Shown here: positions 4,021-22,602 of the stretch, in pieces
Layout of the letters: each line of letters starts with the position of its first letter
Numbering within the stretch: position 1 is the stretch's first letter
NCBI RefSeq assembly: GCF_013817205.1
Contig: NZ_JACDDD010000034.1
Location: 1-36,891 of the forward strand
Direction: 5' to 3'
DNA: 36,891 nucleotides
Source of the DNA: Polaromonas sp.
GTDB lineage: Bacteria > Pseudomonadota > Gammaproteobacteria > Burkholderiales > Burkholderiaceae_C
Notes under the pieces: generated by a model
Databases searched by the model: none
The model's input: only the letters and a program-made list of their open reading frames with translations
Told to the model about the DNA's origin: nothing
Program-made: the position numbers and the translations under genes

Positions 4021-4641
4021 TCAGGAGATGTGCAGGGCCTTAAAGGTCTCGGCACGGGCGCGTCGCTGCGCTGCAAACTTGAGTCGTTGGGCATGAACAA
4101 TGGTTTTCAGGTCGAAAACGGCTCGTTCAAATAACTCATTGATTATAACGAAGTCGAACTCCCGGGCCTGGGCCATCTCGACGGCGGCATTTTGCAGGCG
4201 CAGTTCAATCACGTCGGGTGCGTCCTCGCCGCGCCGCTCCAGCCGCGAGCGTAGTTCATCCCAGCTCGGCGGCAGGATGAAGATCAACACCGCATTGGCA
4301 AAAATCCGTTTGATGTTGATGGCGCCCTGGAAGTCGATTTCCAGGATGACGTCGGCGCCGGTGGCCACGCGCTCCTCAATGGTCTGCCGCGAGGTGCCGT
4401 AGCGCTGGCCGTGGACGTGGGCCCATTCGAGGAAGGAGTCTCGCAGGACCATGCCGTCGAACTCTTCAGATGAAATGAAAAAATACTCGCGACCGTGTTT
4501 CTCCTGGCCGCGGGGTGCCCGGGTGGTGTGCGACACCGCAGGCTGCACCCTGGCGTCCAGCTCCATCAGCGCCTTGACCAGGCTGGACTTTCCGGCGCCA
4601 CTGGGTGCGGCGACGACAAACAGGTTTCCGGGGTAATCCAT
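4021..4641 (-). CDS. gmk: Guanylate kinase
   Basis: 206 residues, the usual Gmk length. It converts GMP and ATP to GDP and ADP in the cytoplasm. The P-loop APSGAGKSS (about residues 12-20) is followed by the GMP-binding region [19 protein letters not shown] and by the lid and core segments [15 protein letters not shown] and [17 protein letters not shown]. It lies 41 bases downstream of the yicC-family gene and upstream of rpoZ, a common proteobacterial operon that links guanine nucleotide supply with RNA polymerase and (p)ppGpp metabolism. Confidence 0.97.
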
Positions 4642-4682
4642 AGGTGTTGTGATTGGTTTTCTGGATGGGCTGCGCTGGCGGG

Positions 4683-5600
4683 CTACTCTATGTTCTGAAC
4701 CTGTTCGCGAATCTGCTCGATCAGCACCTTCATGTCGACCGAGACATGGGTCAGTTCCAGGGAGCCCGATTTCGACCCCAGGGTATTGGCTTCGCGGTGC
4801 AGCTCCTGGATCAGGAAGTCCAGACGCTTGCCGACTTCGCCCCCCGCCGTGAGCAGCCTGTCAATTTCTTCAAGGTGCGACGTGAGACGCATGATTTCCT
4901 CGGCCACATCAATGCGAATGGCGAACGAGGTGGCCTCCAGCAGGGCCCGGTCCTGGGCTGCTTCCGGAAGGGTGGTGCCGTCAGTCAGGGCCATGGCCTC
5001 TTTCCAGCGCTCCATGAAGCGGCTTTTTTGCTGCTCGACCAGCTTGGGCACCATGGGGGTGGCCGCGGCGGCCAGCGCCCGCAGCTGCGCGGTTCGCTCC
5101 AACAGCATCTGCGCCAGCCGCGCGCCCTCGCGTTCGCGGGCAGACAGCAGCTCCTTCAGGGCTTTTTTGGCGAGTTTGAGCAGCTCATCGCTGTAATCGT
5201 GCGTGCTCCTGTCTTCCCCTGCGGCCATGCGCAGGATATCGGCCACGCTGAGCGCTGCGGCGCCGGGGAGCCATGAGCGCACCGTGTCCTCCATGGAGCC
5301 CAGGCGCTGCAGCGTGGTGCTGGCCGGGGCCTTGAGGCCTCCAGCGGAATTTCCTTCCAGCGAGACACGTATTTCGATCTTGCCGCGCTTGAGTTTGCCG
5401 GTCAGCAGCTCTCGCAAAGCCGGCTCGGACTGCCGCAGTTCATCGGGCAGACGGAAGGCCAGATCCAGAAAACGGCTGTTGACCGAGCGTATTTCCACGC
5501 CAAGGCGCGCGTGGCTGCTGTTGCCAGCATCGGCGTCAGCGGCTGTGTGTGCAGGGGTGGACTGGACGGCTGCATAGCCTGTCATACTGTAAACTGACAT
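4683..5600 (-). CDS. yicC: YicC/YloC-family endoribonuclease
   Basis: 305 residues starting [10 protein letters not shown], the diagnostic N-terminus of the YicC/YloC family. [20 protein letters not shown] and the C-terminal segment [22 protein letters not shown] are the two best conserved blocks. Known members are small-RNA-associated or stationary-phase endoribonucleases; the exact target here cannot be told. It is slightly longer than average because of a low-complexity stretch near residues 18-30 ([12 protein letters not shown]). It is the first gene of the leftward yicC-gmk-rpoZ set and is divergent from the kinase gene; the 65 bases between them must contain both promoters. Confidence 0.92.
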
Positions 5601-5665
5601 TCGTAATACGCTTTTCTAGAGTCAACAGGAGGGGTGATCCCGTCACCTTGCTTTAATCCCGAATT

Positions 5666-6673
5666 ATGTCAAAGGTCAAGCCAGCGCCACTCCCACCCGA
5701 TACCGTCATTGGAGGCTATCGCGTTGTGCGCAAGCTGTCTGCCGGCGGGTTTGGGGTAGTTTACTTGGCTGTTGACAATGAGGGACAGCAGGTTGCCATC
5801 AAGGAGTACCTGCCGTCTTCACTGGCCAGCCGTCCACCGGGTGAGCTGCTGCCGCAGGTGCAGCCCGAAAAGCTCTCGCTCTATCGCCTGGGATTGAAGA
5901 GTTTTTTCGAGGAAGGGCGCTCGCTGGCCCAGATCTCCCACGCTTCCGTGGTGAGTGTGCTTAACTTCTTCCGCGAAAACGAGACCGTGTACATGGTCAT
6001 GAACTACCTGGAGGGGGGCACCCTGCAGGACTTCATCATCACGGCGCGCGAACTCAAAAAGCAGAAGGTGTTCCGTGAATCGACCATCCGTTCGCTGTTT
6101 GACGAGATCCTGCGCGGGCTGCGCATCGTGCACCAGCACAAGATGCTGCACCTGGATATCAAGCCGGCCAACATCTTCATCACTGACGACAACAAGGCGG
6201 TGATGATCGACTTCGGCGCCGCGCGCGAGGTACTGAGCAAGGAAGGCAACTTCATCCGCCCCATGTACACGCCAGGGTTTGCCGCGCCCGAAATGTACCG
6301 TCGCGATTCTTCCATGGGCCCCTGGACCGACATTTACGCGATCGGCGCCTGCATTTACGCGACCATGCAGGGTTATCCGCCCAACGACGCGCCGCAGCGC
6401 CTTGAAAAAGACCGTCTGTCGCTTGCACTGTCCCGCCTGCGCGGCGTGTATTCGGACAACCTGATTGAAGTGGTTGAATGGTGCATGTCTCTCGACCCCC
6501 TGTCGCGGCCCCAATCGGTTTTTGCCTTGCAGAAGGAGCTCAGCCGCGAGGGCGAGCGACGCTACACCAAGCTGACCGTCGGCGAAAAAATGCGCCTGCA
6601 GTTTGACAACATGGTGTCAGACACCAAGAAAACCGCGCGCAAGGCCACCGGCTTTGCGACAAAGTTCAAATGA
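5666..6673 (+). CDS. Soluble serine/threonine protein kinase (Hanks type)
   Basis: 335 residues containing one eukaryotic-like kinase domain from about residue 18. The glycine loop is LSAGGFGVVYL (24-34), the ATP lysine is K46 in VAIKEYLP, the catalytic loop is HLDIKPANI with catalytic D164, and the metal-binding DFG begins at D182. The residue before the catalytic Asp is Leu instead of Arg, making it a non-RD kinase. I see no transmembrane segment or extracellular sensor. The short basic C-terminus (about 300-335) has no recognised domain. The stop overlaps the start of the PP2C gene (ATGA), so the two are made together, as expected for a reversible phosphorylation pair. Substrates are unknown. 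Confidence 0.93.
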   Translation: MSKVKPAPLPPDTVIGGYRVVRKLSAGGFGVVYLAVDNEGQQVAIKEYLPSSLASRPPGELLPQVQPEKLSLYRLGLKSFFEEGRSLAQISHASVVSVLNFFRENETVYMVMNYLEGGTLQDFIITARELKKQKVFRESTIRSLFDEILRGLRIVHQHKMLHLDIKPANIFITDDNKAVMIDFGAAREVLSKEGNFIRPMYTPGFAAPEMYRRDSSMGPWTDIYAIGACIYATMQGYPPNDAPQRLEKDRLSLALSRLRGVYSDNLIEVVEWCMSLDPLSRPQSVFALQKELSREGERRYTKLTVGEKMRLQFDNMVSDTKKTARKATGFATKFK

Positions 6674-7572
6674 AGTTCTCCGTTTTCCAGGTCAGCCGCA
6701 AGGGCGGCCGCGAAAAAAACGAAGACCGCATGGGGTATTGCTACACCCGTGAGTCCGGCTTGTTTGTGCTGGCTGACGGCATGGGCGGCCACCCCGAAGG
6801 CGAAGTTGCGGCGCAGTTGGCGCTGCAGACCATCTCGGCGCTCTACCAGAAGGAAGCCCGACCGCTGGTCCGGGATACCACCGAATTCCTGTCGTCCGCG
6901 CTGATGGCTGCGCATCACCAAGTCATCCGCTACGCCAGCGAAAAAGGCATGCTCGACACGCCGCGCACCACCGTGGTTGCGGTCATCCTGCAGGGCACGG
7001 GCGCGACTTGGGTGCATTGTGGTGACTCGCGGCTGTACGTGGTGCGTGATGGCGAGTTGCTGACCCGCACCCGCGACCACTCCTATCTGGAGCAGCAGAA
7101 CGCCGGCGTGATCAAACTCGAACGCCTCAACCGCAACATCCTGTTTACCTGCCTGGGCTCGCCTTCCAAGCCGGTGTTCGACATCGCCGGTCCGGTGGTG
7201 CTGCAGCAGGGCGACAAGCTGATGCTGTGCTCCGATGGTCTGTGGGGCAGCCTGACCGACGCTGAAATCGTGCGCCACATGGCCGCCAACGGCGTGTCCG
7301 AAGCGGTGCCCGAGATGGTTGAACATGCGCTGCGCAACGGCGGCCAGCATGGCGACAACGTCACCGTGCTGGCGATGGAGTGGGAAACCCCCGACGCCTT
7401 CGAATCGACACACGGCGTTTCGACTGACAGCATCATGGACGGCGTGTTTGCCTCCACGATCCAGGCCGGCGTGCTTGATACCGGCGTGGAAGACCTCGAC
7501 GACGCTGCCATTGAGCGCTCGATTGCCGAGATCAACGAGGCGATACGCCGTTCTGCCGCCAAAAAGGTCTGA
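6670..7572 (+). CDS. PP2C-family serine/threonine protein phosphatase
   Basis: 300 residues. Metal-binding PP2C motifs are present in order: RKGGREKNEDR near residue 10, LADGMGGHPEGEVAA near 35-50, VHCGDSRLYVVRDGEL near 115-130, MLCSDGLWGSL near 185 and HGDNVTVLAMEW near 225-236. All the aspartates that hold the two metal ions appear to be in place. After the catalytic domain there is an acidic tail of about 60 residues (to EINEAIRRSAAKKV) with no recognised domain. It is translationally coupled to the upstream kinase and most simply removes phosphates added by it. Confidence 0.93.
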   Translation: MKFSVFQVSRKGGREKNEDRMGYCYTRESGLFVLADGMGGHPEGEVAAQLALQTISALYQKEARPLVRDTTEFLSSALMAAHHQVIRYASEKGMLDTPRTTVVAVILQGTGATWVHCGDSRLYVVRDGELLTRTRDHSYLEQQNAGVIKLERLNRNILFTCLGSPSKPVFDIAGPVVLQQGDKLMLCSDGLWGSLTDAEIVRHMAANGVSEAVPEMVEHALRNGGQHGDNVTVLAMEWETPDAFESTHGVSTDSIMDGVFASTIQAGVLDTGVEDLDDAAIERSIAEINEAIRRSAAKKV

Positions 7573-7671
7573 ATCCCGCCCTGACCTCGCGCTTGTGCCG
7601 GCCCGGGCCGCCCCTGCCGTTTTGTTTACCTTTTCAGCCCCCCGGCGTGACTCGCCAGAAAGCCCTTTGCC

Positions 7672-8400
7672 ATGAGTTCATTTGAAAGAAGCGGTGCCCG
7701 TGCGGTTGACCAGCTCCGTCCCGTGCGCATCACCCGCGCCTACACCGCTTACGCCGAGGGTTCGGTGCTGATCGAATTCGGCAACACCAAGGTGTTGTGT
7801 ACCGCTTCGGTTGAGGAAAAAGTCCCGGGCCACAAAAAGGGCAGCGGCGAAGGCTGGGTCACGGCCGAATACGGCATGTTGCCGCGCGCCACGCATACGC
7901 GCAGCGACCGCGAAGCCGCGCGCGGCAAGCAGAGCGGGCGTACGCAGGAGATCCAGCGCCTGATTGGCCGCTCCATGCGGGCGGTGTTCGACCTGAAAAA
8001 ACTCGGTGAACGCACCATCCACCTCGACTGTGACGTGATTCAGGCCGACGGCGGCACCCGCACCGCCAGCATCACCGGTGCGTTTGTGGCCGCGCAGGAC
8101 GCAGTCAACAAGCTGCTGGCGGATGGCAAGCTCAAGGAGACACCGATCCTCGGACACGTGGCGGCCATTTCCGTCGGCATTGTCCAAGGCACGCCCTTGC
8201 TGGATCTTGAGTACATCGAGGACGTGGGCTGTGACACCGACATGAATGTGGTCATGACAGGCGCTGGCCACTATGTCGAGGTTCAGGGTACCGCCGAAGG
8301 TGCTGCGTTTTCACGCAAGGAGATGGATGCATTGCTGCAACTGGCCGAAAAGGGCATCAGCGACCTGGTCCGTCTGCAGCAGCAGGCGCTCCTGAATTGA
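7672..8400 (+). CDS. rph: Ribonuclease PH
   Basis: 242 residues, typical for RNase PH, the phosphate-dependent 3'-to-5' exoribonuclease that trims tRNA 3' ends. Recognisable blocks are [20 protein letters not shown] at the N-terminus, [20 protein letters not shown] (conserved phosphate and RNA contacts), [17 protein letters not shown] and the C-terminal [20 protein letters not shown]. It starts at ATG 7672, 99 bases after the phosphatase. Its TGA stop lies at the edge of a repeat element at 8398-8445, and rdgB follows at once. Confidence 0.96.
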
Positions 8401-12831: not shown

Positions 12832-13488
12832 TCATGTACTTCGCAGCATCCCCTTGCATTCTATAAACGCCACCACCTCCGCCAAGCCCGTGTTGGTCTT
12901 CAGGTTGGTCATGACAAAGGGCTTGAGGCCCTTGGCCGTCGTGCGCATCCGTATGGTGTCGGCTTCCATCACGGCCAGGTCGGCACCGACGTGGGGGGCG
13001 AGGTCGGTCTTGTTGATCACGAATAGGTCACTTTTGGTGATGCCGGGGCCGCCTTTGCGCGGGATTTTTTCACCGGCGGCGACGTCGATCACGTAAATGG
13101 TCAGGTCGCTGAGTTCGGGGCTGAAGGTGGCTGCCAGGTTGTCCCCGCCGGATTCAATGAACACCACGTCGGCGTCCGGAAAGTCCACCAGCATGCGGTC
13201 AATTGCTTCCAGGTTGATGGACGCGTCTTCGCGGATGGCGGTATGTGGACAGCCGCCGGTTTCCACACCCATGATGCGCTCCGCGTCGAGCGCTCCGCTG
13301 ACGGTCAGGATCCGCTGGTCTTCCTTGGTGTAGATGTCGTTGGTGATGGCCACCAGGTCGTAATTGGCTTTCATGGCCTTGCACAACATTTCGAGCAGGG
13401 TGGTCTTGCCGGAGCCAACTGGCCCGCCTATGCCGACGCGCAGCGGGGGAAGTTTTTTGGTGCGGTTCGCGATGTGGTGAAGCGTCAT
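12832..13488 (-). CDS. ureG: Urease accessory GTPase UreG
   Basis: 218 residues. UreG is the SIMIBI GTPase that carries nickel and, with UreF and UreD, drives GTP-dependent nickel insertion into urease. The P-loop is [15 protein letters not shown], followed by [24 protein letters not shown] (with the Cys-Pro-His nickel site), [17 protein letters not shown] and [12 protein letters not shown]. It overlaps ureF by ATGA at 13485-13488, so translation is coupled. It is the last gene of the cluster; tRNA-Ser follows on the same strand. Confidence 0.96.
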
Positions 13489-14183
13489 GATCTGAACAGT
13501 CGGGAGTATTGCGTTTCGTGTTGCGATGAAAGAATCGCCAGCATGGGCGAAAAGGCCTGACGTTCATGGTCCTCAAGCGCCATCGCCGTACCGATGGCCG
13601 TCGGGATTTCTGCAGCCAGCCGCGCCAGTATGCGCTGGCCGGCGCTCTGACCCAGCGGCACGGATTTGAGCGCAGCCTGCACCATGTTTTCAGCCCAGCC
13701 GAAGGCGTAGGCGGTCAGGCAATCAGGCACACCGGCGTCAAGCGGCGAGGCGGCGAGTGCAAAGACAACAGGGTAGGTGGGGGGCAAAGCCGCACAGACT
13801 TGCAGGTGTGCGTCGCTGATGCTCTGGTGATTGCGCAGCCACTCGAGCAGGGAGCGGCCCATCTGCTCGGCCTGCAGGCGCAGCTCGCTGGTCTCGCGGG
13901 TCTGCAGCACCCAGTCATTGAGTGCCTTCACCTTGTCGAGCTGCTTGTTGCGCCAGGCCGGAACGGCCTGCGCGATCACCGCCAGGTCGCCGCGCGCCAG
14001 GCTCAGGTGCAGCTGGTCGCTGAGCCAGTCGGCCGCTATGCTTTCTGTAGCTACTCCCGCCCGGTCCACGCCGGCTTCCAGCCCTTCGGAGTAAGAAAAA
14101 CCACCGACCGGCAGGGCCGGAGAGGCCAGCCATATCAGTTGCAGCAGGCTGGCGGCAGGCAGGGACTGGGCTGTCGCGCTCAA
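13485..14183 (-). CDS. ureF: Urease accessory protein UreF
   Basis: 232 residues. UreF is the helical scaffold that binds apo-urease and UreD and recruits UreG. Family features are the N-terminal [20 protein letters not shown] motif and the C-terminal half with [22 protein letters not shown]. The start overlaps the ureE stop (ATGA at 14180-14183) and the end overlaps the ureG start. A segment near 14034-14066 (encoding [10 protein letters not shown]) resembles the dispersed ATAGCT repeat in inverted orientation, although the protein remains in frame. Confidence 0.95.
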
Positions 14184-14812
14184 TGGCTGTTCGGCTTGTG
14201 CGGGTGGATCTGGATCGCCACCGGCCGCGCCTCATGCGTGTGCGCATGATCGTGATCGTGGCCATGTTCGCAGTCGGATCCGTGGACATGCGGTGCGACT
14301 GCGGCCACAGGTGTGTCTGTGTGGCCATGTGCGCCCACTTGTGCATGACTGTGGCCGCCGGCGCTGTACGCACCACCTTCGGGCTCGAAGGACTCGCTGA
14401 CCTCGTTGACGATCAGGTGCATGGCGCGCAGCATCTCGGCCAGCACATGGTCGGGCTCAATCTTCAGATGATCGGGCTTGAGTTCAATGGGCACATGCCG
14501 GTTGCCGAGGTGGTAGGCAGCTCGGGTCAGGTCGAAGGAGCTGCCGTGGGAGGTGCAAGCGGTGATGCGCAGCACGGTTTGCGGCGCGGCAATCACCCGG
14601 ACCATGGAACCGTCTTCGGCAATCAGCACATCACCACCGCGCACCAGCGTGCCGCGCGGCAGAAAGATGCCGAGCTGGCGGTCCTGCGAGTCGGTGGCCT
14701 CGAAGCGGCTTTTCTGGCGGATGTCCCAGTCGAGCTCGACGCTGGCGGCGCGTTTGAGCAGCACGGGCGCCAGTCCAGCGCCTTGGGAAATGCATTTGGA
14801 GACTTGAAGCAT
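14180..14812 (-). CDS. ureE: Urease accessory nickel metallochaperone UreE
   Basis: 210 residues. UreE is a dimeric nickel chaperone that passes Ni to UreG. The N-terminal peptide-binding domain covers about residues 1-75 and the metal domain about 76-150 ([20 protein letters not shown] contains the conserved interface His). A C-terminal tail of about 60 residues carries 15 histidines (for example [12 protein letters not shown]), suited to nickel binding or storage, as in Klebsiella UreE. It starts 56 bases after the acetyltransferase gene. Within the cluster it is the only accessory protein with obvious metal storage capacity. Confidence 0.95.
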
Positions 14813-14868: not shown

Positions 14869-15327
14869 TCAGGAAAGGGTTTTGGTCATGAACAAACTGT
14901 AGGGGTCGAGCGCATAGTCAGCAAAGGGGCCGCACGCCACAAAGCCTTCACTTCGATACAGCTTTTGTGCCGCAGCAAATGGAGCGTGCGAACCGGTTTC
15001 TAGGCTGATCTCTCGAATGCCTTTGGCACGCGCAATTACCTCGATGTGATGTAGCAGCGCGCGAGCCACGCCCTTGCGCATGTGGCCGGCTGCAGTGCGC
15101 ATCGACTTGAGTTCTGCATGCGTTGGCGTCAGTTGCTTGAGCGCCCCGCAACCCATTAATTCATCCCCTTCACAGGCTGTCCAGAACGTGATGGACGGAT
15201 GTCGCAATGCCTCAAGGTCGAGCGCATGAACGCTCTCGGGCGGGGAGTGTTTGTGCATCTCATCCAGGTGCAATTGCAGCAATGCCGCAATTGCCGCCCC
15301 GCGCAGGTCATCAATCCGGATTTCCAT
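14869..15327 (-). CDS. GNAT-family N-acetyltransferase in the urease cluster
   Basis: 152 residues with the acetyl-CoA binding motif HMRKGVARALLHHIEVIARA (R-x2-G-x-A form) at about 80-100, a preceding strand ELKSMRTAAG, and motif B IREISLETGSHAPFAAAQKL followed by YRSEGF. The fold is that of small-molecule or protein N-acetyltransferases; the substrate cannot be read from sequence. It lies 7 bases after ureC and upstream of ureE on the same strand, so it is almost surely co-transcribed with urease genes, although it is not a known maturation factor. Confidence 0.88.
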   Translation of the reverse strand: MEIRIDDLRGAAIAALLQLHLDEMHKHSPPESVHALDLEALRHPSITFWTACEGDELMGCGALKQLTPTHAELKSMRTAAGHMRKGVARALLHHIEVIARAKGIREISLETGSHAPFAAAQKLYRSEGFVACGPFADYALDPYSLFMTKTLS

Positions 15328-15334
15328 ACACGGT

Positions 15335-17080
15335 TCAGAAAAGAAAGTAGCGCTGCGTCATCGGCAGGCTGGTGGCGGGCTCGCAGCTCAGCAACTCGCC
15401 ATCGGCTCGCACAGCATAGGTCTGGGCGTCAACCTCCATTTTCGGCGCATAGGCATTGTGAATCATGTGCCGCTTTTGCACGCCGCGGATGTTCTTCACG
15501 GCGGCCAGTGTTTTGGCCAGACCGAACTGCTCTTTCACGCCGGCGGCCAGTCCGGCCTGCGACACAAAGGTCAGCGAGCCCCTGGCAATCGCGCCGCCAA
15601 AGCCGCCGAACATCGGGCGGTAGTGCACTGGCTGTGGTGTCGGTATCGAGGCGTTCGGGTCGCCCATGGCCGCCATGGCGATGAAGCCACCTTTGAGGAT
15701 CAGCGCCGGCTTGATGCCGAAGAAAGCCGGTTTCCAGACCACCAGGTCGGCCCATTTGCCCACTTCAATGGAGCCGACCTCGTGCGAAATACCGTGGGCA
15801 AGCGCCGGGTTGATGGTGTATTTGCTGATGTAGCGTTTGGCGCGGAAGTTGTCGTTGCGCTCTGTGTCTTCGGGTAGCTTGCCACGCTGCACCTTCATCT
15901 TGTGCGCCGTTTGCCACGTACGGATGATGACTTCACCGACCCGACCCATGGCCTGGCTGTCGCTGCTCATCATGCTGATCGCGCCCAGGTCGTGCAACAC
16001 ATCTTCGGCGGCAATGGTTTCCTTGCGGATGCGGCTTTCGGCAAAGGCCAGGTCTTCTGCAATCGCCGGGTCCAGGTGGTGGCAGACCATCAGCATGTCC
16101 ACATGTTCGTCCAGCGTGTTGACGGTGTAGGGCATGGTCGGGTTGGTTGACGATGGCAAAAAATTCTGTTCGCCAACGACCTTGAGGATGTCCGGCGCAT
16201 GGCCACCACCCGCGCCTTCTGTATGGAAGGCGCAGAGGGTGCGGCCCTTGGTGGCGGCTATGGTGTTCTCGACGAAGCCGCTTTCGTTGAGCGTGTCGCT
16301 GTGGATGGCCACCTGCGTGTCGGTCTCGTCTGCCACGTCCAGGCAGTTGCTGATCGCGGCCGGAGTTGTGCCCCAGTCTTCGTGCAGCTTCAAGCCGATC
16401 ACACCAGCGTTGATTTGTTCATGCAACGCAGCCGGCAGGCTGGCATTGCCCTTGCCCAGGAAACCCAGGTTCATCGGGAAGGCGTCTGCGGCCTGCAACA
16501 TGCGCTCGATATTCCACGGACCCGGTGTACAGGTGGTGGCGAAAGTGCCGGTGGCCGGCCCGGTGCCGCCGCCCAGCATGGTGGTGACGCCCGAGGTCAG
16601 CGCTTCCTCGATCTGTTGCGGGCAGATGAAATGGATGTGTGAGTCGATGCCACCGGCGGTGACGATCATGCCTTCGCAGCTGATGATCTCGGTGCCGGGC
16701 CCGATGATCATGTCGATGCCGGGCTGGGTGTCGGGGTTGCCGGCCTTGCCGATGGCCGCGATGCGCCCGCCCTTCAGGCCAATGTCGGCCTTGACGATGC
16801 CCCAGTGGTCGACGATCAGCGCGTTGGTCATCACGCAGTCCACAGCACCTCCGGTGCTGTCTCCGAGTCCCGCCTTCGGCGCGTTGGTGCGCTGCGACTG
16901 CGCCATGCCGTCGCGAATCGTCTTGCCGCCGCCGAATTTCACTTCCTCCCCGTAGCTGCCGGCGCGCAGGGTGTAGTCAGCCTCGACCTCAATCAGCAGG
17001 TCGGTGTCGGACAGGCGCAGGCGATCGCCCACGGTGGGGCCGAACATTTCTGCGTAAGCGCGGCGTCCAATAGTTGCCAT
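15335..17080 (-). CDS. ureC: Urease subunit alpha
   Basis: 581 residues, the catalytic subunit that hydrolyses urea to ammonia and carbamate. The nickel ligands are in place: [14 protein letters not shown] (two His), the lysine that becomes carbamylated in [35 protein letters not shown] and the later Asp in [11 protein letters not shown]. The active-site flap is present as [20 protein letters not shown] (Cys-His-His). ATG 17080 ([20 protein letters not shown]) is the family start; an upstream open reading to 17386 lies out of frame through ureB and is not used. It is slightly longer than the usual 567-573 residues. Confidence 0.97.
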
Positions 17081-17090
17081 TACCGGACTC

Positions 17091-17140
17091 CCGTAGGGCC
17101 GCCCCAAGGGAGGCCAGCGCCCCCGCGGGGGGCAGTGATT
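17091..17140 (-). repeat. GC-rich palindromic intergenic repeat between ureB and ureC
   Basis: On the minus strand the spacer reads CACTGCCCCCCGCGGGGGCG followed by CTGGCCTCCCTTGGGGCGGCC. It contains the palindrome CCCCCGCGGGGG. A related GC-rich block occurs at 22600-22740. I recognise this as a dispersed intergenic repeat type of Comamonadaceae; copy number must be checked genome-wide. It could fold in the mRNA between ureB and ureC. Confidence 0.5.
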
Positions 17141-17165
17141 ACACGAAGTGATGAACGTGGGGGCA

Positions 17166-17471
17166 TTAAAGCTTTCCTTGAATGAGGCCGCGAAAGCCGT
17201 AAATCTTTCTTTCACCGGCGAAGTCCACCAGCTCCACCGTGCGCTGCTGGCCCGGCTCGAAGCGCACAGCCGTGCCGGAGGCGATGTTGAGCCGCATGCC
17301 ATGCGCGGCGGGGCGGTCGAAGGCCAGGGCGCCGTTGGTCTCGGCAAAGTGGTAGTGCGAGCCGACCTGGATCGGCCGGTCGGCACTGTTCTGCACCACC
17401 ACGGTCAGCGTGCGCCGCCCAGTGTTGAGTTCGTGGTCGGGGCCGTCGGTGAGCAGTTCGCCGGGAATCAT
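17166..17471 (-). CDS. ureB: Urease subunit beta
   Basis: 101 residues, the normal length. The protein begins [20 protein letters not shown] and includes [16 protein letters not shown] and [19 protein letters not shown], the most conserved parts of the beta subunit. ATG 17471 is chosen over a start further upstream because MIPGE is the family N-terminus. It precedes ureC by 85 bases, a gap filled by a palindromic repeat, and follows the small His-rich membrane protein gene by 7 bases. Confidence 0.96.
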
Positions 17472-17478
17472 GGCCGCC

Positions 17479-17664
17479 TCACTTGTCGCCGCGCGACAGC
17501 CAGATGGCCAGCGCCAGCACACACGCCGCAGCCACATAACCCCAGACGTCGGTGGCATGCCAATGCGTGCCTGCTATGGCGTGGCCTTCATGGGCAAATA
17601 CGGCTGTAGCCCCCGTAGAAATTGCGCAAACAGCTATGATTTTGAGAGCGTTTTGAAAGTTCAT
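17479..17664 (-). CDS. Small His-rich membrane protein between ureA and ureB
   Basis: 61 residues, not a known urease subunit. An N-terminal hydrophobic signal-like segment ([19 protein letters not shown]) is followed by a His-rich loop [15 protein letters not shown] with five histidines, one transmembrane helix ([17 protein letters not shown]) and a short charged end SRGDK. The topology suggests a periplasmic His-rich loop, which could bind nickel. It may be a shrunken relative of the HupE/UreJ nickel permeases, whose N-terminus is similar (AH-GH pattern), but this is only a guess. ATG 17664 is preferred over TTG 17679 because AGGGAC lies just before it. Part of the signal segment is encoded by a dispersed-repeat-like sequence (17624-17640). 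Confidence 0.75.
17624..17640 (-). repeat. ATAGCTG..TGCGC repeat core inside the small urease-cluster gene
   Basis: The minus strand reads ATCATAGCTGTTTGCGC, identical in 16 of 17 bases to the segment in trpF at 34498-34514 and similar to the rph-rdgB spacer. Further along the gene the sequence continues with GGGGCTACAGCC, which I recall as the second conserved half of the same repeat type. The repeat is read in frame as IIAVCA. Confidence 0.5.
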
Positions 17665-17690: not shown

Positions 17691-17993
17691 TCAGACAATC
17701 GGCTGGTGAACGGTGACGAGTTTGGTGCCGTCGGGAAAGGTGGCTTCAACCTGGATGTCCGGAATCAACTCGGCGATACCGTCCATCACGTCGGCGCGGG
17801 TCAAAATTGTCCGGCCATCGCTCATGAGCTGGGCAACAGTCTTGCCATCGCGCGCACCTTCCATCACGGCGGCGCTGATCAGTGCCACGGCTTCCGGGTA
17901 GTTCAGCTTGAGACCTCGCGCCTGGCGCCGTTCGGCCAGCAGGGCGGCGGTGAAGATCAGCAGCTTGTCTTTTTCTCTTGGGGTCAATTCCAT
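17691..17993 (-). CDS. ureA: Urease subunit gamma
   Basis: 100 residues starting [20 protein letters not shown], the standard UreA opening, with [20 protein letters not shown] and the closing [13 protein letters not shown]. It is the first gene of the leftward urease cluster. A ribosome site GGAGAG lies at 17999-18004. A sigma-54-type promoter at 18037-18053 would give a leader of about 33 bases. ureD, which often precedes ureA, is not present; the next gene upstream is divergent. Confidence 0.96.
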
Positions 17994-18103: not shown

Positions 18104-18142
18104 CTTCAGCAGATCCGCCTGATGACGTATTGACACCCACCC

Positions 18143-21100
18143 ATGGACACCCCCGCCGCACCGCTTCCCCTGCCTGCGCAGGCCGTGCCCCCGTGGGCCC
18201 CCGCGCCCGTGCCCGCCGGCGATGGCGAAGCACCGGTGCAACGCATCATCAAGGTCAGGCGCGATTACAACAGCTGGGTCGCCAGCGAAACCATGGAGGA
18301 CTACGCGCTGCGCTTCACGCCCCAGCGTTTTCGCCGCTGGTCTGAATGGCGCGTCGCCAACACCGCTTTCGGCGCGGCTTCGTTTCTGATCCTGGAAGCA
18401 GTTGGCGCCACCTTGCTGGTGCAGTATGGCTTCACCAACGCCTTCTGGGCGATTGTGGCCACCGGACTGATCATTTTCATGGCCGGCTTGCCGATCAGCG
18501 TTTATGCCGCGCGTTACGGCGTGGACATGGATCTGCTGACGCGCGGCGCCGGATTCGGCTACATCGGCTCAACCTTGACCTCGCTGATCTATGCCTCTTT
18601 CACCTTCATCTTTTTTGCGCTCGAAGCTGCGGTCATGGCTTATGCGCTGGAGCTGGCGCTGGGTATTCCACCGAGTTGGGGTTACTTGATTTGCGCGCTG
18701 GTGGTGATTCCGATGGTGACCTACGGCGTCTCTGTCATCAGCCGCTTTCAGATGTGGACGCAGCCGCTGTGGCTGATCATGCTGGTCGTGCCATTTGTCT
18801 ATGTTTTGGTGCGTGACCCCGGGGCCTTTGCAGGAATAACGCACTATAGAGGTGAAAAAGGCGCCAACTCTGGCTTTGATTTGCACCTGTTTGGTGCTGC
18901 TTTGACGGTGGGCATCGCCCTGATCACCCAAATGGGGGAGCAAGCCGACTACCTGCGCTTTATGCCCGTCCGGACACCGCTCAATCGCCGCCGCTGGTGG
19001 GCTGGCGTGCTGGCCGGCGGGCCGGGCTGGGTGTTGCTCGGGGTGGTCAAAATGCTGGGCGGTGCGTTTCTGGCTTACCTGGCGATCCAGCATATGGTGC
19101 CGCTGGATCGGGCGGTGGATCCCAACCAGATGTACCTCGCCGCTTATGAATACGTGTTTCCGAACTACGGCTGGGCGGTGGCTGCCACGGCGCTGTTTGT
19201 GGTGATCTCGCAGCTCAAGATCAATGTCACCAATGCTTATGCGGGATCACTCGCCTGGTCCAACTTTTTCTCGCGTTTGACACACAGCCATCCGGGACGG
19301 GTGGTGTGGGTGGTATTCAACACCCTGATTGCCTTCATGCTGATGGAGATGAATGTGTTTCAGGCCCTTGGCGACGTACTGGGTCTGTACTCCAACATCG
19401 CGATTGCCTGGATGATGGCGGTGGTGGCCGACCTGGTCATCAACAAGCCGCTGGGCCTGTCGCCCAAGGGAATCGAGTTCAAGCGCGCTCACCTGTATGA
19501 CATTAACCCGGTTGGTGTTGGCGCGATGGCGCTGGCCTCGGTGCTGTCGGTGGCGGCCCACCTGGGTCTGTTTGGCCGCACGGCACAGGCGTTTTCGGCG
19601 GTCATTGCATTGGGTACGGCTTTTGTGACTTCGCCGCTGATTGCCTGGGCCACCAAAGGGCGCTATTACATTGCCCGCCAGGGGGAAGCTTCAGAGGCCG
19701 ATGCCCAAGGCAACTACAAACCCTATGCGCTCAAGCGCTGCGTGATCTGCGAGCGCGACTACGAAGGTCCGGACATGGCGCATTGCCCGGCCTATCAGGG
19801 GCCGATCTGCTCGCTGTGCTGTACGCTGGATGCGCGCTGCGGCGATTTATGCAAACCGCAGGCCAGTCTCTCTGCCCAGTGGTCGGCCACGTTGCGCTGG
19901 CTGCTGCCGCGCCGAATCTGGCCTTATCTGGATACCGGCCTGGGGCATTTCCTGCTCCTGATGCTGGTCATCGTGCCGCTGCTGGCCAGCGTGTTTGGCC
20001 TGCTCTACCACCAGGAAATGCGCGCGTTGCTGGAGTTGCAGGCGACGTCCGGACCGACGCTTCGCTCTGGATTTTTGAAAGCCTACATGGCACTGCTGGT
20101 GATCGCCGGGCTGGTCGCCTGGTGGCTGGTGCTGGCGCACAAAAGCCGACAGGTGGCGCAGGAAGAGTCCAACCGCCAGACCCATTTGCTGATGAAAGAG
20201 ATCGAGTCGCACCGCCAGACCGACGAGGCTCTGCAGCAGGCAAAACGCGTGGCCGATCTCGCCAACCAGGCCAAGAGCCGCTATATCAGCGCGATCAGCC
20301 ACGAGCTGCGTACGCCGCTTAACAGCATTCTTGGCTATGCGCAGTTGATGGGTGAAGACACCTCTATTCCGCCGCACCGTCAGCAGGCCGTCGGGGTCAT
20401 CAAGCGTGGCGGTGAACACCTGCTGTCGCTGATCGAGGGCACGCTGGACATCGCGCGCATCGAAAGCGGAAAACTCACGCTCAAGGTCAAACCCATGCAC
20501 TTCACCGACTTTGTGCAGGAGCTGACCGGCATGTTCGAGCTCGAAGCGCAGGCCAAGGGCCTGGAGTTTCACTTCGAGTCCGAAGGCAGCCTGCCCGTGG
20601 TGGTGCGCGCCGATGAAAAACGCGTGCGTCAAATCCTGATCAACCTGCTGGGCAACGCCGTCAAGTTCACCTCTGCGGGGCGCATCAGCCTGCGCCTGAA
20701 GTACGCACGCGAGATGGCTCACATCGAGATTGAAGACACCGGACCCGGCCTGTCGCCGCAGGAGATTGAGCGCATTTTTGAACCCTTCACGCGCGCCTCC
20801 ACACCCGGTCCTGCGGCGCCCGGTGCGGGGCTGGGCCTGACGATTGCCAAGATGCTGACGGATCTGATGGGCGGCGAGTTGACGGTGGCCAGCACGCCCG
20901 ATGTCGGTTCGGTGTTCCGCGTCAAGCTGTTTTTGCCCGAAGTCCGGCTGGCGCCCGGCGCGGCGCTGCCTGTGCCAACCTCCCGCGCCCACAAGGCGCG
21001 TTACGGATATGCCGGAGCGCGGCGGCACGTGCTGGTGGTGGACAACGAAGAAGCCGACCGCGAGCTGCTGGTCAATGTGCTGGGGCCGCTGGGTTTCGAG

Positions 21101-21631
21101 CTGCGCACGGCGGCCAGCGGCCACGACTGCCTGGATTTGCTGGCCGCGGGCTACCGGCCTGAAGTGATCCTGATGGACCTGGCCATGCCGGGCATCGACG
21201 GATGGGAGACTCTGCGCCGCGTTCGGGCAGCAGGGCACGCCGATGTTCATCTGGCCATTGTGTCGGCGAATGCTTTCGACAAGGGCCTGGACAACGATGT
21301 CGGTGTCCGGCTGGAAGACTTCATCCTCAAGCCGGTGCGCCACAGCGAACTGCTGGACTGGCTGGAGCGGCGCCTGCAACTGCTTTGGCTGGAAGCACCG
21401 GTGCAAGTGCCGGCAGCTGCGGCACCGCCGCGCATCTACCCGCCGGTGGCGCAGCTCGACGCCTTGCGCGCGGTCGTCAACCTCGGTTATTTTCGCGGCA
21501 TCATGAATACGCTCGACGAGATTGAAAAAGCCCAGCCGCAAAGCGCCGGTTTTGCTGCCGAGATGCGCTCTCTGGCGCGCCAGTTCCAGTTTGAGACCAT
21601 GAGCCAGCAGCTCAGCGAGGTGCCGACATGA
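18143..21631 (+). CDS. NCS1-type permease fused to a hybrid histidine kinase
   Basis: 1162 residues. Residues about 30-515 form a twelve-helix NCS1 (cytosine/purine/uracil/allantoin) permease-like domain, for example [32 protein letters not shown] and [15 protein letters not shown]. Residues 533-570 hold eight cysteines (533, 536, 548, 556, 559, 560, 566, 570) and look like a metal-binding cytoplasmic module. Two more helices (about 600-622 and 645-667) flank a short loop. Then come a HisKA domain with phospho-acceptor H720 ([10 protein letters not shown]), an ATPase domain (N838, DTGPG at 865-869, GAGLGL at 894-899), a receiver with D967, D1012 and K1063, and a helical C-terminal domain to 1162. 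It resembles in layout the SSSF symporter-kinases such as CbrA, but with an NCS1 module. It likely senses, and perhaps transports, a nitrogenous base. It is coupled by ATGA to the response regulator and is divergent from urease. Confidence 0.9.
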
Positions 21632-22602
21632 ATAATCGCGCGCTCGCGCAGACGCTGGACCGCGCCAACAGCGACGTGGTGTTGATCGTCGATGACGTGC
21701 CCGACAACCTCTCGGTATTGCACGATGCGCTCGACGAATCCGGTTTCACCGTGCTGATCGCCACGCATGGCGAAGCCGCCTTGCAGCGCGCCGCGCAGGC
21801 CCTGCCTGACATCGTGCTGCTCGACGCCATGATGCCCGGTATGGATGGTTTCGAGGTCGCCAAACGCCTGAAGGCCGATGCGCGCACTGCGCATATTCCC
21901 ATCATCTTCATGACCGGGCTGACCGAGACCGAATATTTGGTCGCTGCGCTGGATTCGGGCGGCGTGGACTATGTGACCAAACCGATCAAGCCCAAGGAAG
22001 TGCTGGCACGCATCGGCGTGCACTTGCAAAGCGCGCGCGAGAAGCGCCAGGCACGCAATGCGCTCGACGCTTTTGGTTACGCCACCATCACGGTGCGTGT
22101 CAGCGACGGCAAACTGATGTGGCAGACACCGCTGGCCCGTGACCTGCTGCTGGCCTACTATGGGACCAGCGCGCCGCAAACACCTGAAGCCGTGCTGGCT
22201 TGGCTGCGGCGCAACCTGGCGGATGCCGAACGCCAGATCGAGCCGCCGCGCCTGGTGTGCGAGAGCGCCGTCTCAGTGGCTCGCCGCCTGACCTTTCGCC
22301 TGCACCAGCGGACCGGCGATAGTGAAGGAGGAGGCGACTGGCTGATCATCATGCGCGAGGAATCCGACGACACCGTGATCCAGGCCATGAGCCTGAGCTT
22401 CAAACTCACGGCACGCGAAGCCGAGGTGCTTTACTGGGTGGTCAAGGGCAAGATCAACCGCGATATCGGCGACATCCTGGGCACCAGCCCCATGACGGTG
22501 AAAAAACACCTGGAGCGGGTGTTTGCCAAACTGGGCGTGGAGACGCGTACTGCGGCGGCCGGCATGGCCATGAGCCGGATCCTGCAGTTACATCAGAAGT
22601 AG
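21628..22602 (+). CDS. Response regulator with PAS-like middle and LuxR-type HTH
   Basis: 324 residues. The N-terminal receiver begins VVLIVDDVPDNLSVL and has phospho-acceptor D66 (IVLLDAMMPGMDG) and the conserved Lys in VTKPIKPKE. A middle region of about 120 residues (NALDAFGYATITVRVSDGKL, WQTPLARDLL) is PAS-like. The C-terminal LuxR-type helix-turn-helix is FKLTAREAEVLYWVVKGKIN followed by IGDILGTSPMTVKKHLERVF. It is read by ATGA overlap with the permease-kinase gene, so it is its cognate partner. It lacks an AAA+ domain and so cannot itself activate sigma-54 promoters; the urease promoter would need another activator, or this regulator acts elsewhere. Confidence 0.92.
   Translation: MNNRALAQTLDRANSDVVLIVDDVPDNLSVLHDALDESGFTVLIATHGEAALQRAAQALPDIVLLDAMMPGMDGFEVAKRLKADARTAHIPIIFMTGLTETEYLVAALDSGGVDYVTKPIKPKEVLARIGVHLQSAREKRQARNALDAFGYATITVRVSDGKLMWQTPLARDLLLAYYGTSAPQTPEAVLAWLRRNLADAERQIEPPRLVCESAVSVARRLTFRLHQRTGDSEGGGDWLIIMREESDDTVIQAMSLSFKLTAREAEVLYWVVKGKINRDIGDILGTSPMTVKKHLERVFAKLGVETRTAAAGMAMSRILQLHQK

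Follow-up and report, generated by a model that had tools for sequence, protein, structure and literature searches.

A putative NCS1-type urea and short-chain-amide transceptor with a hybrid histidine kinase, encoded beside urease genes

The window analysed here, a stretch of 36,891 nucleotides of Polaromonas sp. DNA (contig NZ_JACDDD010000034.1), carries divergently from a urease cluster the gene of a protein in which an NCS1-like transporter domain is followed by an eight-cysteine module and a hybrid histidine kinase. Judging from its gene neighbours and from a DNA palindrome common to the promoters concerned, this protein is likely a membrane transceptor for urea and short-chain amides, whose kinase would, together with a LuxR-type regulator, control the genes for the uptake and hydrolysis of these compounds. 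The view builds on what was computed here, namely the architecture and fold of the protein, its gene linkage, and a palindrome that is enriched at promoters of the system. To our knowledge, there are few direct sensors of urea or small amides among regulators. If the reading is correct, the operons for urease, Urt and Fmd/Ami gain a regulator, an operator and a class of ligands, and a third transporter fold becomes available, after SLC5 and Amt, for studying how a transport fold controls a kinase.

Architecture of the sensor protein

The sensor is encoded on the + strand by an open reading frame of 1162 codons (18143..21631), for which orthologues exist; a chance reading frame is ruled out by orthologues of high identity in genomes of the same family. 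The N-terminal half reaches at most 94% identity in these genomes and at most 96% in named Polaromonas, and the genome of the window (G000) contains a single full-length copy. The NCS1-type transporter or sensor domain (about aa 34-517; 18242..19693, +) was delimited with an AlphaFold2 model, Foldseek fold matches in the PDB and hhalign. It is followed by the cysteine module (about aa 530-572; 19730..19858, +), which was recognised in the sensor alignment and comprises C533, C536, C548, C556, C559, C560, C566 and C570, so that eight of the ten cysteines of the protein cluster at positions 533-570. Two long helices (aa 599-630 and 634-704; 19937..20254, +) then lead into the kinase and, according to hydropathy and the AlphaFold2 model, hold two extra transmembrane segments; hydropathy places about 12 such segments at 71-505 and the further two at 603-621 and 647-665.

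The C-terminal part consists of a HisKA dimerisation and phosphoacceptor domain (aa 710-776; 20270..20470, +; Pfam E 9.1e-17; H720 read from the sequence), a HATPase_c domain (aa 824-931; 20612..20935, +; E 6.7e-27) and a Response_reg receiver domain (aa 963-1073; 21029..21361, +; E 5.5e-16; D1012 read from the sequence), all of which score above the Pfam cut-offs. The adjoining gene (21628..22602, +) encodes a response regulator with a REC and a LuxR-type (GerE) DNA-binding domain, as assigned by Pfam. With HisKA, HATPase_c and a receiver in one chain and a regulator gene next to it, the protein is a hybrid histidine kinase; an Hpt domain was not found at the sensor system of the window. Pfam, hydropathy, fold comparison and orthologues thus confirm the permease-kinase fusion in one reading frame that a first-pass annotation of this DNA had proposed, and Pfam likewise upholds its hybrid kinase with a coupled response regulator.

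Relationship of the N-terminal half to NCS1 transporters

Sequence searches did not assign the N-terminal half to a family. No Pfam family matches it even at E 10, and PF02133, the NCS1 family by which the first-pass annotation had suggested checking the domain, matches at E up to 10 neither the query sensor nor any of the 36 members of an alignment termed A2 (35 sensors and the standalone protein of locus L174); at E up to 1e-5 it has no match anywhere in the genome of the window. Because these searches, and phmmer and hmmsearch searches of PDB sequences, gave nothing useful for this half, the analysis turned to comparisons of folds and of profiles. For aa 34-705, AlphaFold2 gave, from 74 sequences that included four distant permeases, a model with a pLDDT of 90.5 and a pTM of 0.89, and in a Foldseek comparison with the PDB the top five matches are CodB (TMt 0.80-0.81) and Mhp1 (0.65-0.68), whereas SSS and other LeuT-fold transporters rank below these NCS1 structures. 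Standalone permeases that were retrieved with the sensor domain at 25-26% identity provide a bridge at the sequence level: three of the four that were scanned exceed the PF02133 cut-off, as does the standalone protein of L208, and hhalign aligns A2 with three PF02133-positive standalone relatives at 99.1% probability (E 1.4e-18, 416 columns) and with twelve canonical NCS1 proteins at 84.8% probability (E 6.5e-6).

Fold and profile comparison therefore bear out the NCS1-type permease of the first-pass annotation, and a better fit to another transporter family, which it had named as a reason to abandon the idea, was not seen. As a PF02133 match is absent, the domain is best filed as a distant, NCS1-related branch, and not as a member of PF02133; this placement depends on the model and on sequence profiles. 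An SSS/SLC5 fold was considered as well and rejected, with SSS structures below NCS1 in Foldseek and no SSS match in Pfam.

Linkage of close orthologues to urease genes

The urease genes of the window, identified by Pfam on its open reading frames, all lie on the - strand and hence divergently from the sensor, as had been noted in the first pass: ureA (urease gamma, 17691..17993; Urease_gamma E 7.2e-47; start set at the Met with which the Pfam domain begins), ureB (urease beta, 17166..17558; Urease_beta E 1.9e-42), ureC (urease alpha, 15335..17386; reading frame as listed, domain from aa 105), ureE (14180..14812), ureF (13485..14183) and ureG (12832..13488; cobW/UreG). A gene for a GNAT acetyltransferase is present within the cluster, between ureC and ureE (14869-15327).

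In 70 of 80 named close loci, ureA, ureB or ureC lies upstream on the opposite strand. In five of the remaining ten the flank is shorter than 3 kb, and in the other five it is 10 kb (L076, L080, L081, L085 and L117); a second sensor stands beside urt genes in L080 and L085, and urt-like genes (39-50%) lie downstream in L117. A contig titled Akkermansia muciniphila (L110) carries an 82% identical copy together with a urease cluster, which is probably a binning error.

An even draw of 200 genomes of the same family was searched with the sensor domain. Matches occurred in 114, and as those in G029, G065, G176 and G188 are distant permeases only, 110 of the 200 genomes have the sensor domain. The close type, defined by at least 67% identity over most of the domain, is found in 91 genomes after dropping the partial rows G191, G123, G169 and G049. 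Urease is common in the family (151 of 200 genomes), but ureC is present in 91 of 91 close-type genomes (in G003 by two weaker matches) and in only 60 of the 109 others, an association with a Fisher p of 2e-16 that is uncorrected for kinship, the genomes being related and the counts thus not independent. In 79 of the 91 genomes ureC is at most 10 kb from the close-type sensor, on the opposite strand in 79 of 79; it lies farther away on the same contig in five and on another contig in six, and that of G003 was not placed. As to the dropped rows, ureC is present in G123, G169 and G049 and gave no match in G191, where the sensor is of the close type and the genome 73% complete.

Distant homologues and their neighbours

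For the distant homologues, 73 loci, a hand-picked part of the places found, were searched by tblastn with reference proteins for UrtA, B, C and D, FmdA, FmdB and AmiE that score above NCBIfam cut-offs. Matches to a "ureD" reference were left out of the counts because this reference fits no NCBIfam model, and a first neighbour survey by clustering of open reading frames was discarded for its antisense frames and replaced by the tblastn survey. In 60 of the 73 loci, urt, fmd, ami or ure genes occur within 10.5 kb of the sensor: 36 loci have fmd/ami and urt, eight urt, six urt and ure, five fmd/ami, four all three and one ure. The nearest marker gene is upstream and divergent, by the rule of the script, in 47 of the 60 linked loci. 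Of the 73 distant loci, 60 have a LuxR-type regulator next to the sensor. In L132, L133, L149 and L203 the link consists of urt-like matches at 38-53% identity that may reflect related ABC transporters; the above-cut-off UrtA of the window's own genome is likewise just 40% identical to the reference. No urt, fmd, ami or ure genes were found in 13 of the 73 loci, four of which have cut flanks (L131, L154, L181 and L184) and nine 4 kb or more on each side; one of these nine, L178, contains another sensor, which adjoins urt genes.

L080, L085, L153, L154, L155 and L178 each carry two different sensor copies at a distance of about 7 to 15 kb, in some of these loci beside different sets of urea or amide genes; L080 and L153 have identical sensors. 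In L130, a sensor with its regulator (4025-8109) stands beside genes that by eye read as nifK, nifD and nifH, and no urea or amide genes were found there. In a tree of 94 rows built by a quick method, the window protein falls into a supported group of 18 rows, which are mostly urease-linked, and the groups of fmd/urt-linked sensors fall elsewhere.

The sensor module is found across Pseudomonadota, and it matches 526 of 72,556 plasmid records, of which 342 are from Klebsiella and 78 from Sinorhizobium. Among six plasmid records that were opened, four annotated ones agree with the linkage (B. vietnamiensis pBVIE02, Mitsuaria, Klebsiella and S. meliloti pSymB). In the single Klebsiella record opened, the sensor stands beside urtABCDE and a formamidase gene, and on pSymB urtABCDE is two kb from the sensor, with three small genes between. 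Common annotations of the sensor, among the rows listed, are "ATP-binding protein", ArcB and generic hybrid kinase. Two records named "Acinetobacter phage" (CAKLQF020000001.1 and CAKLQH020000001.1), each above 300 kb and with two sensor matches, look like host DNA.

The recognised neighbours, urtABCD, fmdA, fmdB, amiE and ureABCEFG, are genes for urea and short-chain amides, and the link to nitrogen metabolism expected in the first pass is thereby supported by both the close and the distant loci. The ligand suggested there, a purine, pyrimidine, hydantoin or allantoin-like compound, did not find such support. NCS1 transporters carry nucleobase-like, hydantoin or allantoin ligands, and a sensor with this fold could respond to a nitrogen source of that kind that yields urea on breakdown, the more so as one standalone relative is annotated as "allantoin permease". 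Formamidase and amidase are, however, foreign to purine breakdown, the recognised neighbours in the 60 linked loci are urea and amide genes, and the "allantoin permease" itself adjoins fmdA and fmdB. Among the neighbours identified, a part of all neighbours from a survey directed at urea and amide genes, there are no purine or allantoin genes. We therefore regard a nucleobase-like ligand as improbable and favour urea and short-chain amides.

Cysteine module, exchanged outputs and kinase-free relatives

The 69 aligned sensors and the standalone protein of L174 all keep the eight cysteines, which substantiates the Cys-rich module seen in the first pass, and the complete set is present in none of the four distant permeases. 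What follows the module is variable. Behind the same sensor module there is a HATPase without receiver in L169, L170 and L172, HisKA-HATPase without receiver in L176, HK-REC-REC-Hpt in L148, PAS-PAS-HK-REC in L186 and PAS-GGDEF-EAL in L185 (7249-10920), and the last fusion hints that urea or amides may set c-di-GMP too. Across 93 proteins, some of them with such other outputs, permease and cysteine module are more conserved than the kinase.

These observations bear on the possibility that the NCS1 domain is merely a scaffold and that the kinase reads the general nitrogen or energy state, an ion flux, or a docked loaded binding protein such as UrtA or FmdD. For CbrA, the transport domain is reported to be non-essential for autokinase and phosphotransfer activity, although it appears to modulate the autokinase, and L-histidine is reported to have no significant effect on either activity (PMC7096432). 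Also in favour of this possibility, urtA is the closest of the marker genes in 47 of the 60 linked loci, and the L130 sensor stands beside apparent nif genes. On the other hand, the stronger conservation of permease and cysteine module than of the kinase, in a comparison that includes other outputs, and the persistence of the sensor module when the output is swapped fit a specific ligand. We consider the scaffold explanation unlikely, though less so than a nucleobase-like ligand, and retain specific sensing of urea or amides as the preferred reading.

Three proteins stop at or just past the cysteine module and have no kinase: that of L174 (559 aa, with the start chosen here), one from Moraxella osloensis (547 aa as annotated) and one from Streptomyces (about 573 aa). 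By eye, the Moraxella osloensis protein retains four and the Streptomyces protein five cysteines in the module region. All 69 aligned sensors have E85, which is replaced by Q in L174, and the two other standalone proteins have an acidic residue one position before it (by eye); with three sequences, this difference between sensors and standalone proteins is only a lead. The kinase-free transporter copies in L174 (9767-11446) and L243 (8914-10557) adjoin formamidase genes and are candidates for a new amide/urea permease family.

Such copies near formamidase genes might suggest that the fusion protein is mainly a low-flux transporter of urea or amides as well, with a kinase that just feeds back on its own uptake, and CbrA is indeed described as a protein that both transports and signals (PMC7096432). 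As genes of Urt-type ABC transporters are already nearby in 54 of the 73 distant loci, we regard a mainly transporting role as the least probable of the alternatives and a sensory role as the likely one.

A palindrome at promoters of the system

A search for inverted repeats within 400 bases before the distant sensor genes gave TACGT-N6-ACGTA in 23 of 66, and no dyad occurred more than three times in ten shuffles. The longer family palindrome, ATACGTCA-NN-TGACGTAT, is found at up to three mismatches before 31 of 68 distant sensors, compared with 0.15% of shuffles. Among 87 close orthologues it is found at up to three of 16 mismatches in one, the window itself, and at up to four mismatches in 11, compared with 0.6% of shuffles. 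For the core form ATACG-N8-CGTAT, allowing up to one mismatch gives hits in 36 of the 67 distant loci, where 0.53 are expected, and in three of the 81 close loci, where 0.33 are expected; allowing up to two of 10 gives 43 distant (7.5 expected) and 23 close loci (7.9 expected). All shuffles were mononucleotide shuffles, and related loci are not independent. The best core match of the window is a putative operator in the gap between ureA and the sensor gene, ATCCGCCTGATGACGTAT (18113..18130, no strand assigned), with three of 16 mismatches to the family palindrome and one of 10 to the core; over the whole window, the core at two mismatches shows no excess (4 versus 4.6).

In the 3.77-Mb genome of the window there are six sites at up to three mismatches, compared with four for a control pattern. 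One is the site at 18113-18130 and another, ATACGCCGGGTGGCGTAT, precedes by about 80 to 115 bases the urtA reading frame on contig 138, which encodes the only UrtA of this genome above the cut-off; for three of the other four, no link to the sensor system was noted (L245 and L246; those of contigs 141 and 148 were listed only). At up to two mismatches, 41 genomes contain eight sites, compared with seven for the control pattern, and 33 of the 41, including G000, have none. Five of these eight sites are in promoters of the sensor system, namely before urtA (L254), before the sensor (L255), between urtA and amiE with the sensor next (L257 and L258) and between urtA and the sensor (L259, which belongs to the set that yielded the motif), and those in L256, L260 and L261 are not. 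The palindrome is weak in close orthologues other than the window, and for this reason we rate the overall reading as likely and refrain from a stronger word.

Proposed mechanism

In the mechanism that we propose, the NCS1-fold domain would bind, and might also transport, urea where the branch is urease-linked, or short-chain amides of the formamide or acetamide type in the fmd/ami-linked branches. The bound state would be relayed through the cysteine module, which is probably metal-binding, and the two long helices (aa 599-704) to the histidine kinase, and the kinase would, by a putative phosphate route from H720 and D1012, control the neighbouring LuxR-type regulator. This regulator is the presumed binder of the ATACG-N8-CGTAT palindrome and would switch the urease, Urt and/or Fmd/Ami genes, and probably the gene of the sensor as well; as to the sign of control, activation is assumed.

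A wider generalisation is conceivable, in which NCS1-type transceptors whose cysteine module binds metal would form a so far undescribed class of widespread urea and short-chain-amide sensors in Pseudomonadota. The one sensor module would be coupled to kinases, to phosphorelays and to c-di-GMP enzymes, and the kinase-free relatives would form a new family of formamide/urea permeases. We give this generalisation an even chance and rank it below the reading of the window protein itself.

Comparison with known systems

A description of an NCS1-kinase fusion family was not found in the literature searched, outside which most subscription journals and supplements fall, and titles and abstract beginnings on formamidase, fmdA/urtA, urease and short-chain amides in connection with kinases or two-component systems do not describe the sensor family. 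A system for the same kind of substrates is AmiC/AmiR, which also controls the use of short-chain amides; AmiC is described as a ligand sensor of the periplasmic-binding type and AmiR as an antiterminator, so that, unlike the window sensor, neither has a transporter fold or is a kinase (PMC13209695). In Pseudomonas veronii, a chromosomal amiE/fmdA/fmdB/urtABCDE cluster is reported to be without amiC and amiR; the same strain also has a plasmid ami operon and grows on acetamide or formamide (PMC13209695).

With CodB and Mhp1, the sensor domain has the fold in common, and conserved D-x-x-R, N-x-Y-x-x-S and D positions are common to the sensor and its PF02133-positive relatives. In contrast to these transporters, to which it is 16-17% identical, the sensor has no PF02133 match and adds the cysteine module and the fusion to a kinase.

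Transporter-fused kinases as such are already known. The SLC5/STAC kinases CbrA, CrbS/MxtR and RpuS likewise combine a sensor of transporter fold with a (hybrid) histidine kinase and a partner regulator, and they serve the use of small nutrients, as far as the available parts of these reports describe them (PMC7096432, PMC7918813, PMC13022988, PMC9100948). The window sensor differs from them in being nearest to NCS1, in its linker of eight cysteines and two transmembrane segments, and in its urea and amide target genes; within aa 521-709 there is no Pfam match for a STAC linker, although the library may hold no STAC model. In the ammonium sensor kinase Ks-Amt5, a transporter for a nitrogen source has likewise become the sensor of a kinase, but it is an Amt domain, from one anammox bacterium, and the part of the report available to us mentions no cysteine module (PMC5764959). 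While fusions of kinases to SLC5 and Amt domains thus precede it, the version with an NCS1 fold is a new variant of this principle.
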